In this document: positions 23,986 through 26,153 of the stretch, one piece after another
Position numbering within the stretch: position 1 is the first letter of the stretch
How the letters are laid out: each line of letters opens with the position of its first letter
Source: Hyphomonadaceae bacterium
GTDB taxonomy: Bacteria; Pseudomonadota; Alphaproteobacteria; Caulobacterales; Aquidulcibacteraceae
Direction of reading: 5' to 3'
NCBI GenBank assembly: GCA_019753105.1
Contig: JAIELJ010000002.1
Location: 62,001-126,000, forward strand
DNA: 64,000 nt
Translations under genes and position numbers: made by a program
Notes under the pieces: generated by a model
What the model was told of the DNA's origin: nothing
What the model saw: the letters and a program-made list of their open reading frames with translations, nothing else
Database searches by the model: none

Positions 23986-24561
23986 TTAATCGCGGCGTCC
24001 GCCGTCTAGGCCGCTGCGGTCGCCGCGCCGGCCATCGCGGTGGTCGTCATCGCGGTCGTCGCGTTGGTCGCGGAAGTCGCGTTGGTCGCGGAAGTCGCGT
24101 TGGTCGCGGAAGTCGCGCTCATCGCGATGATTCCAGCGGCGATCGTCCTGATCGAACCGGCCGAAGCGGCCATAGGTGCGATCAAAATCGCGCGCTTCAC
24201 GCCAAGCCCAGCCGCGCATCTGCACGTGTGGCGCAAAGATTCGGTCGATCGGGCGGCGGTTGCGATTATCGAACACGAAGGCCACGCAGCCGTTGCGGTT
24301 GCAGCGATCCGTGTAGGCATACGTCATACCGGGCCGGAAATTGTAGGGCCGATCGAGCAAGCGGTAGAACATGCGGTCGCCGCGGCTGAACGTGAACGTC
24401 CGCCCATCGTTTCGGATGGTGATCGTTGCGCGAACGCGATCGAAGTCGCGCTCGTAGCGGGGTCCGTCACGATCCCCGCGCCGGTAATCTTGCGCTGCGG
24501 CCGCACCTGCGGTCGTCAGCGTAAGCGCCGCCAGGGCGGCTGCGAACAGCTTGGTTTTCAT
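23986..24561 (-). CDS. Exported Arg/Asp-rich protein with tandem repeats
   Basis: A 191-residue protein with a signal peptide (MKTKLFAAALAALTLTTAGAAAAQ). The middle half holds TFTFSRGDRMFYRLL and RPGMTYAYTDRCNRNGCVAFVF with two Cys that may pair. The C-terminal tail is almost all Asp, Arg, Gln and Phe, with six-residue repeats DFRDQR (about residues 150-167), matching 18-bp DNA repeats. It resembles RcnB-like periplasmic proteins in composition only. Function unknown. The tail's length may vary between strains by repeat gain or loss. Confidence 0.68.
   Translation of the reverse strand: MKTKLFAAALAALTLTTAGAAAAQDYRRGDRDGPRYERDFDRVRATITIRNDGRTFTFSRGDRMFYRLLDRPYNFRPGMTYAYTDRCNRNGCVAFVFDNRNRRPIDRIFAPHVQMRGWAWREARDFDRTYGRFGRFDQDDRRWNHRDERDFRDQRDFRDQRDFRDQRDDRDDDHRDGRRGDRSGLDGGRRD
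24061..24114. repeat. 18-bp tandem repeat, three copies
   Basis: Three copies of gcgttggtcgcggaagtc lie head to tail and encode DFRDQR repeats on the minus strand in the exported Arg/Asp-rich protein. Copies are identical, so recent expansion is likely. Confidence 0.9.
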
Positions 24562-24774: not shown

Positions 24775-25647
24775 ATGCCCGCGCGTTTGATTTCGGTGAT
24801 CAACATGAAGGGCGGCGTCGGTAAATCGACGACGACGGTTTCGCTTGCCGAAACGCTCGCCCACCACCAGCGCCGCCGTGTTCTGATCATTGACCTCGAT
24901 CCGCAGACTAACGCGTCGATCATGGCGGCGGGGCCTGACAAGTGGAACAGCTTGCGCGAGGCCGAGCGCACGCTCGATTTCTTCTTCGAGAGCTATGTCG
25001 TTCAGCAAAAGCCAAAGCCGTTTAAGTCGCTGATTGAAGCGAAGGTCAGCGATCTGAAGGGCAAGCCGGATGTCGCGCTCTGCGCCGCCGCGCCAGAGTT
25101 TCGCATCGTCGAACGCGATATGATCGAGACGTTCGTGAAGCGTGGCTTCCACATCGATCAAATTCAGAAGTGGATCTGCGAGCGCTTCGCCAACGGTCTG
25201 AAGACCGTGATGAACGATTACGATTACATCTTGATCGATTGCCCGCCTGGCATCTCGCTGTTCGCCGAAGCGGCTTTGATCGCGGCCGATGCGATCCTGG
25301 TGCCGACGATCCCGGACTACGTTTCGCGCCTCGGCCTCATCACCTTCCGCAAGCGCGCGCTGCGCCTCATCAACGAGCGCCGTGGCGGGGCTTCGCAGCT
25401 CATGGTGCTGGCGACCAAGTATGACGAGACGTTCTCGCTGCACCGCTCGGAAGCGCAATTGCTGAAGGACAATCTCGGCGATGCGATGTTCGATGTGCGC
25501 ATTCCGCAGCACGTCGATATCGCCAAAGCCGCCGAATGGTCGGAAACGCCGCGTACGTTCGAACAAAAGTACGGCGCGATGGCGGGTACGGTGAAAAAGT
25601 TGGGTGAGGAATTCCAAGGCAAAGTGGAGCTCGCGCCCGCCTTATGA
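24775..25647 (+). CDS. ParA/MinD-type ATPase
   Basis: The 290-residue protein has the deviant Walker A motif KGGVGKSTT at residues 12-20, the Walker A' region LIIDLDPQTNAS, and Walker B-like YILIDCPPGI. It belongs to the ParA group of positioning ATPases that move DNA or protein cargo. The 4-bp overlap with the next gene suggests the partner is encoded there. No parB or parS is visible, so it is likely an orphan ParA that positions something other than the chromosome, but the cargo is unknown. Confidence 0.9.
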   Translation: MPARLISVINMKGGVGKSTTTVSLAETLAHHQRRRVLIIDLDPQTNASIMAAGPDKWNSLREAERTLDFFFESYVVQQKPKPFKSLIEAKVSDLKGKPDVALCAAAPEFRIVERDMIETFVKRGFHIDQIQKWICERFANGLKTVMNDYDYILIDCPPGISLFAEAALIAADAILVPTIPDYVSRLGLITFRKRALRLINERRGGASQLMVLATKYDETFSLHRSEAQLLKDNLGDAMFDVRIPQHVDIAKAAEWSETPRTFEQKYGAMAGTVKKLGEEFQGKVELAPAL

Positions 25648-26153
25648 GCCTGAACAAGTCGCTCGACCGTCTGTTCGATGAAATTCGCCGCGAGGCGAAG
25701 CGCAATCCTGACTTCGCCGATCGGCTCGACGCCGTCTTCCGCGCGCACAGCTCACGCCGCGATGTCGCCGATGAGGTGATTGAGGATGTCGTGATCGACG
25801 GCACGGTTTCCTCCCCCGCAAGCGGGGGAGATGCGAACGAAGTGAGCGGAGGCGGAAAGTCCGCCAAACGCCGCGCCGCTCCCCCTCAATCGGCTGCGCC
25901 GACAGCTCCCCCGCAAGCGGGGGAGCAAAAGACGAGCATCAATCCCGCTGGGCTCTTCAAGAAAGAAGGTGAAGCCGCGCTCGTATCTGCACTCGCGGAT
26001 CAGGATTTGATCTCGCTTCGCGCGCTGGTCGCCGAGCACAATCTCGATCCCAGCGGCGTCACGCCGTCGCTCACGCGCGACGAACTCGCGGCACACATTG
26101 TTGCGCAAGCCAAGAAGCGGGCCGAGCGCGATGAGAAGATGTTCGATTATTGA
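25644..26153 (+). CDS. Unknown partner of the ParA-like ATPase
   Basis: A 169-residue protein, read from ATG overlapping the ParA stop. The N-terminal 55 residues (MSLNKSLDRLFDEIRREAKRN) form a helical, charged region; residues 96-169 are a second helical part ending EKMFDY. Between them (about residues 56-95) lies a Ser/Gly/Pro-rich insert that coincides with two identical palindromic DNA elements. The insert keeps the frame, so the gene stays intact. Because it is translationally coupled, it may be the ParA cargo adaptor or an ATPase stimulator; this is inference. I know of no family. Confidence 0.72.
   Translation: MSLNKSLDRLFDEIRREAKRNPDFADRLDAVFRAHSSRRDVADEVIEDVVIDGTVSSPASGGDANEVSGGGKSAKRRAAPPQSAAPTAPPQAGEQKTSINPAGLFKKEGEAALVSALADQDLISLRALVAEHNLDPSGVTPSLTRDELAAHIVAQAKKRAERDEKMFDY
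25811..25926. repeat. Palindromic repeat pair inside a coding gene
   Basis: Two copies of CTCCCCCGCAAGCGGGGGAG lie at 25811-25830 and 25906-25925, the second in a 22-base palindrome-like context (25905-25926). Between them are GCGAACGAAGTGAGCGGAG and CAATCGGCTGCGCCGACAGC, which look like parts of the same intergenic-type repeat element. The unit sits in frame in the ParA partner. The stems are 9 bp with a 2-base centre. Confidence 0.8.

Follow-up and report, generated by a model that had tools for sequence, protein, structure and literature searches.

The insert in the gene directly downstream of a ParA-like ATPase gene in the window (the whole stretch of 64,000 nt that was analysed) is very probably one copy of a non-autonomous palindromic mobile element, selfish DNA that is tolerated in the encoded protein as a disordered linker. 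Relatives of this copy are dispersed among genomes, occur both in and outside coding frames, are present in frame in conserved proteins of some related bacteria and are found in several states of decay.

The host gene (25644-26153, + strand) was identified as an open frame with homologue matches and encodes 169 aa. Its start overlaps by 4 bases the end of a ParA/MinD-like ATPase gene (24775-25647, + strand; Pfam AAA_31, E-value: 6e-31). Describing the 169-aa product as a "ParA partner" is a statement of position; the protein has no match above the curated Pfam cut-off and zero matches in NCBIfam, and a Foldseek search with its AlphaFold2 model returned nothing at an E-value of 0.001 or better. 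This model was built from three sequences (mean pLDDT 66.8, pTM 0.40) and predicts helices at residues 3-20, 24-36 and 101-166. The linker region between them (residues 37-100; 25752-25943, + strand), in which the insert lies, is predicted to have neither helix nor strand and is mostly of low confidence, with pLDDT below 50 at residues 37-79, 83-86 and 92-94. An open frame that also adjoins the ParA-like gene (23986-24561, minus strand) contains RDFRDQ tandem repeats.

The whole element covers approximately 119 bases of the window (25809-25927, + strand) between the conserved ends TC and CA, with limits based on the end consensus of 85 copies, matches the nhmmer profile with 78.3 bits and encodes S56 to E94, counted from the start of the host gene. 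The sequence-only reading of this DNA had reported two identical palindromes inside the ParA-adjacent gene, and these are exact: hairpin A (25811-25830, + strand) and hairpin A' (25906-25925, + strand) both have the sequence CTCCCCCGCAAGCGGGGGAG, each 20-nt hairpin being a 9-bp inverted repeat around AA. With up to three mismatches this sequence is found nowhere else in the window, and none of 100 window shuffles matched its count, so that the pair is far beyond chance for the window. Inside hairpin A lies the left hairpin-B region (25831-25855, + strand), which by-eye comparison with relatives shows to be worn in this copy and in which no left B segment was matched by the search expression. 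On the other side, a C-rich run and the right hairpin B' (25880-25905, + strand; stem TCGGC/GCCGA within 25890-25902) were read from the sequence, and B' is among the matched B segments. The RNA fold predicted for 25808-25928 has an energy of -68.8 kcal/mol (z = -5.13), and none of 200 shuffles was as good. The frame from 25644 to 26153 contains no stop across both hairpins, and the proposed in-frame translated linker was thus upheld, with 39 residues by our count in place of the 40 first given. A search of the genome that contains it (3.87 Mb, 20 contigs) for the 20-mer, allowing two mismatches, marks just the host gene and one other location, C5:100161-100287. The flanks of this second copy (C5:100158-100288) are weak in the coding test and contain stops, and it was therefore not called in-gene.

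When the insert was used for DNA searches, 26 of the 30 genus genomes gave matches at an E-value of 0.01, with up to 43 in a single genome, and at 1e-6 there were matches in 100 of 299 genomes sampled from the order, representing 26 of 54 genera. These copy numbers are rough lower bounds, with at most 29 (genus) and 2 (order) candidates scored per genome. Half-length matches were seen in both searches. The element has the layout hairpin A, variable hairpin B, G5, core, C5, B' and A', which corresponds to two inverted half-units (hairpin A, hairpin B and G5) flanking a short core, and in the 85 copies whose ends are whole, TC precedes and CA follows the hairpins. As the whole element is close to being a palindrome, a 113-position profile made from the copies finds it on either strand. 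Among 155 matched hairpin B segments from 93 copies there are 102 distinct sequences, of which the pairing is kept: 144 of the segments have four or more pairs, and the mean energy is -8.2, compared to -3.5 for base shuffles. A scan of named genomes for two A hairpins gave at least 115 stretches at the right distance. In the 17 of these that were inspected by eye, the same layout was seen in Caulobacter (two), Hyphomonas atlantica, Alkalicaulis, Marinicaulis, Phenylobacterium and Terricaulis as well as in an uncultured alphaproteobacterium and a Phycisphaerae MAG, and was not seen in Bradyrhizobium, Luteimonas and six others. The hairpin's 16 central letters also occur in a paper on CRISPR in Klebsiella (PMC8847753).

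The 169-aa protein was matched in 42 of 60 genomes of the family (E-value 0.001), although the match in G048 is over the element part only. Thirty homologues were read, 26 from the genus and four from other genera; the genus genomes left out were G034 and G035 (match in pieces), G048 (element only) and G041 (no match). The N- and C-terminal parts align in all 30 homologues, while the intervening linker does not. By profile, nine of the 26 genus homologues carry the element over most of its length (104 of 113 profile positions in G038), two carry its first half (G031 and G033) and 15 carry none, and it is absent from all four of the homologues read from other genera. The open frame is kept in each of the 11 carriers read, including G044, where an extra hairpin is located 3' of the element. 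The sequence-only reading had hung on two points, that the repeat should occur elsewhere and that homologues should not all share a similar linker; both are borne out, the first by the further location in its own genome and the matches in 26 genera, and the second by the 15 element-free genus homologues. As judged from these alignments, the linker predates the insert, for a variable linker is also possessed by the homologues without the element. One such linker, that of G037, looks like a decayed copy: none of 500 shuffles aligned as well with the element linker of G050 (z 5.7, or 3.9 with the other linker cut), the control values for element-free linkers being 2.7 (G051), 3.1 (G039) and -0.6 to 1.6 (others), and G037 and G050 are sisters (support 100/100). 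In G034 the host gene is split at contig ends (C2, C3 and C5) at the position of the element, and the repeat itself may have broken this assembly.

Copies of the element are also found inside other genes. The fetched loci contained 95 distinct copies, of which 92 were classified (three with too-short flanks were left out) using a three-periodic Markov coding test rather than annotation. The same open frame is present on both sides of 28 copies, and of these L063 (at the RimP-NusA junction) and L074 (weak right flank) were set aside. The remaining 26 in-gene copies, 11 in the host-gene family and 15 in other genes, are a non-random sample in that 60 loci were fetched by similarity and 11 of these are in-gene cases. 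The other loci are UvrC (five copies), a lipoyl-domain acyltransferase read as BCKDH-E2 (five copies) and single cases read as PDH-E2, PriA, an acyl-CoA synthetase, an Lhr-like helicase and RsmE; the names are readings of translations, and a comparison with solved chains was made for UvrC alone. At the RsmE locus (L055) the match is partial and looks like a hybrid repeat, and the frame of the Lhr-like case (L120) also starts with a peptide resembling that of a second palindrome family (type 2, see below). In three genomes (L042, L062 and L063, near 1503-1621), the element sits at what was read as the RimP-NusA junction, where it terminates the RimP frame and supplies the RimP C-terminus.

In UvrC, the insert position corresponds to an alignment break with chains 3c65 and 2nrt, in which 69 and 74 query residues are opposed to 3 in each chain. 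By one measure, this loop is 12-21 residues long in other families (22 parsed of 24 genomes) and 37-102 residues long in other genera of the same family (5 parsed of 6); these 30 genomes from outside the genus (27 parsed, 3 unparsed) were chosen from the 100 with element matches. Within the genus the loop was usable in 26 of 30 genomes, with G036, G037, G038 and G049 cut or partial. It is occupied by the element family in seven, by the "type 2" palindrome family in 12 (L136, L139, L140, L142, L143, L147, L148, L150, L151, L153, L154 and L158) and by neither in seven (including G000). Type 2 is translated, for example, as PLAGEGWEGGR...PPPAPAPQGGGG or SLAEK...PSPQGRGG. The E2 linker, read in 28 of the 30 genus genomes, contains the whole element in seven, a lone hairpin in G033 and nothing of the element family in 20 (including G000). 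The G033 locus (L172) has a single hairpin with both outer element flanks, as though the part separating two hairpins had been deleted. Other GC-rich palindromic repeats were observed by eye in the E2 linkers of L171 (G049) and L191 (G040). As assembled, the UvrC gene of G053 (L162) goes out of frame beyond the element.

The 26 in-gene copies are translated in different peptide frames, 15 as SPxxGG, nine as PPxxGE-like and two as PRKRG, the last two both from G052 and with a shorter hairpin arm; this set, which was also used for codon analysis, leaves out the half elements of G031 and G033 and the out-of-frame UvrC copy of G053. Outside the in-gene set there are 66 copies, and 21-52% of these, depending on the frame, are open, which is less than among their own shuffles (56-61%); the element is therefore not built to be open. 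In-gene copies are biased in direction, with 23 of 26 lying one way, which is above the prediction from open frames and stop codons (binomial 1.5e-4, with inherited copies counted as independent). The codon-position test on these copies gave no significant third-position excess (p 0.105) and thus does not show selection on the peptide.

A tree of the genus was made from conserved protein parts. The fewest presence changes on this tree are six for the host gene, seven for E2 and 13 for UvrC (three states; seven for the element family alone), with halves and the lone hairpin scored as present and the UvrC of G037, G038 and G049 left out. Gain and loss are not distinguishable in these counts, recombination could transfer whole linkers between species, some inner branches are weak and several of the genomes are fragmented. 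Twenty-three in-gene copies have a partner at the same site. For 17 of them the copy ranked nearest lies at another site (two of these, L006 and L118, tie with a same-site copy at two decimals), and for six, including that of G000, it lies at the same site; the test pits few same-site copies against many others. The copy set compared here, like that used for GANTC and open-frame counts, excludes copies that cover fewer than about 95 of the 113 profile positions and includes four gene copies added from gene loci. The UvrC and E2 copies of G053 are 89% alike, compared to 77% for the best same-site UvrC copy, and a four-C left hairpin arm is found in G052 in the host gene, UvrC and L096. Element similarity agrees with descent only in part. 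Genome copy number is correlated with the number of the three genes (host, E2 and UvrC) that carry the element (rho 0.73), as expected if copies in genes arise as a side effect of spread in general.

A resident Y1/RAYT transposase was considered as the mobilising enzyme and rejected on account of its inconsistent presence. In a search for the Y1 family, a transposase was identified in 16 of 30 genus genomes, but copy number and Y1 count are poorly correlated (rho 0.28, p 0.14) and Y1 is absent from G000 and from four of the 13 genomes with 10 or more copies (G031, G033, G052 and the incomplete G038). At the ends of the 85 whole-ended copies, there is no excess of direct repeats of 4, 5, 6, 8 or 9 bases at offsets from -4 to +2 that would indicate a target-site duplication, and no clean empty site with exact junctions was obtained. 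Just beyond TC and CA, at bases 3-5 outward from the hairpins, the two sides of the element are complementary in 48, 48 and 40% of these copies versus 28, 31 and 25% when shuffled (0 of 1000 shuffles for each base), perhaps reflecting a palindromic target. Flanks of the form AAC...GTT, without a direct repeat, were observed in 10 of the 85 copies.

An unlikely alternative to repeated insertion is that the element entered the host gene once, long ago, and was inherited with loss or recombination in some lineages. This would account for the similarity of the host-gene copies of G000, G042 and G043, which are 85-89% alike and among which the G042 same-site copy is the nearest to those of both G000 and G043. 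It does not fit the 17 of 23 copies with a first-ranked nearest copy elsewhere or the differing occupants of a single site in both UvrC and E2, and G042, which has the element in its host gene, belongs to a clade (100/99) in which the other four members with data for this gene lack it. A regulatory role, in which the element is retained as a structured RNA or intrinsic terminator and is translated only incidentally, is very improbable. Although the fold is very stable and hairpin B pairing is kept despite sequence variation, such pairing would be just as likely in a structure that serves mobility. Furthermore, an Rfam search with the repeat gave three matches only, all far below gathering scores (E-values of 0.18-0.88), and a strong terminator should harm the uvrC or lipoyl-transferase gene, yet both read through in several genomes.

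The least probable of the explanations weighed here is that the insert has been taken into use and has a selected linker role, such as spacing or binding with the ParA-like ATPase. Retention of frame and openness in every host-gene carrier read is in keeping with such a role, but element-free linkers serve 15 of the 26 genus homologues read, different peptide frames are used and the third-position excess is not significant. The selfish-element explanation is preferred, and under it the following series of events can be proposed. Copies would insert into genes, selection would remove those that break the frame or the fold, and the surviving copies would sit in flexible linkers, where the G+C-rich element would encode a Ser/Pro/Gly/Ala/Glu-rich peptide in the frames used. 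Later decay, to half elements, a solo hairpin or a worn linker, would then slowly rewrite the linker, and the insert would be neutral in the protein. In the window protein, the insert most probably contributes nothing more than extra length to a disordered tether.

A broader proposal, which we make tentatively and would not yet call probable, is that palindromic selfish DNA is a main source of linker sequence in housekeeping proteins of this family: several unrelated repeat families would repeatedly enter the same loops, be translated at once and wear into disordered linkers, such that loops like that of UvrC would have grown several-fold by repeated rounds of insertion and decay. Rickettsia palindromic elements left it open whether selfish DNA in genes is a trait of the reduced genomes of intracellular bacteria or a general way in which new protein sequence arises. 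In the present free-living lineage, with genomes of 2-4 Mb, whole, half, lone-hairpin and worn copies are found at the same loops of testable enzymes, and element-free relatives provide natural controls alongside the carriers.

Among the top-ranking titles and abstracts of a literature search, there was no description of this element or of its in-gene copies in this lineage. Both appear to be new, and in-frame palindromic repeats as a kind are already known: they are well documented in Rickettsia and have been described from further bacteria, nucleotide-excision genes being among their sites (PMC10969869, PMC2229807, PMC5896051, PMC3733652). Bacterial MITEs (ERIC, QMITE and others) are described in two of these papers as small non-autonomous repeats that are at times fused in frame (PMC10969869, PMC5896051). 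Terminal inverted repeats are shared with MITEs; in contrast to these, the present element showed no target-site duplication in the whole-ended copies and no parent insertion sequence in the Y1 family search. The CIRs of Caulobacter are described as alphaproteobacterial repeats of approximately 110 bp with two arms and a linker that carry GANTC (PMC2229807) and are strictly intergenic (PMC10969869). Size, two arms joined by a linker and alphaproteobacterial hosts are common to both, but the present element is also found in genes. It was not assigned to the CIRs because GANTC (the CcrM site) is lacking, with one site in 93 copies versus 43 in dinucleotide shuffles and approximately 12 at the density of the window itself.

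REPINs consist of two palindromic REP units in inverted orientation. The present element similarly contains an inverted pair of short palindromes. One account describes intragenic REPs in DNA repair genes, including uvr genes, a further point in common, and a recB gene struck at about the same site in two Xanthomonas (PMC3733652). Unlike REPs and REPINs, the present element has no GTAG tag and no consistent Y1 transposase, and it is a larger composite unit with a variable hairpin B. Following the definitions in the same account, it is not a GTAG-tagged REP, as its ends are TC before and CA after, without GTAG. Nor is it a CGTC-tagged REP, for which a stem of 8-9 bp opening with two A-T pairs, a 4-5 nt loop and a CCA tail are given; compared by eye, the present stem is CTCCCCCGC/GCGGGGGAG and the tail is CA (PMC3733652).

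Rickettsia palindromic elements are described in two papers as dispersed palindromes of approximately 100-150 bp that are found both between genes and in frame in conserved genes (PMC10969869, PMC2229807). The likeness to these elements suggested by the sequence-only reading holds for the mode: the present element is likewise a dispersed palindrome of this size range with copies outside genes and in frame in unrelated protein genes. In-frame palindromes had already been reported outside Rickettsia (PMC3733652). The present element differs in being G+C-rich, in being made of two-hairpin half-units and in occurring in relatives of Caulobacter and Hyphomonas. By analogy, it would work like the Rickettsia palindromic elements, a likeness of mode that implies neither identity nor sequence kinship with them.
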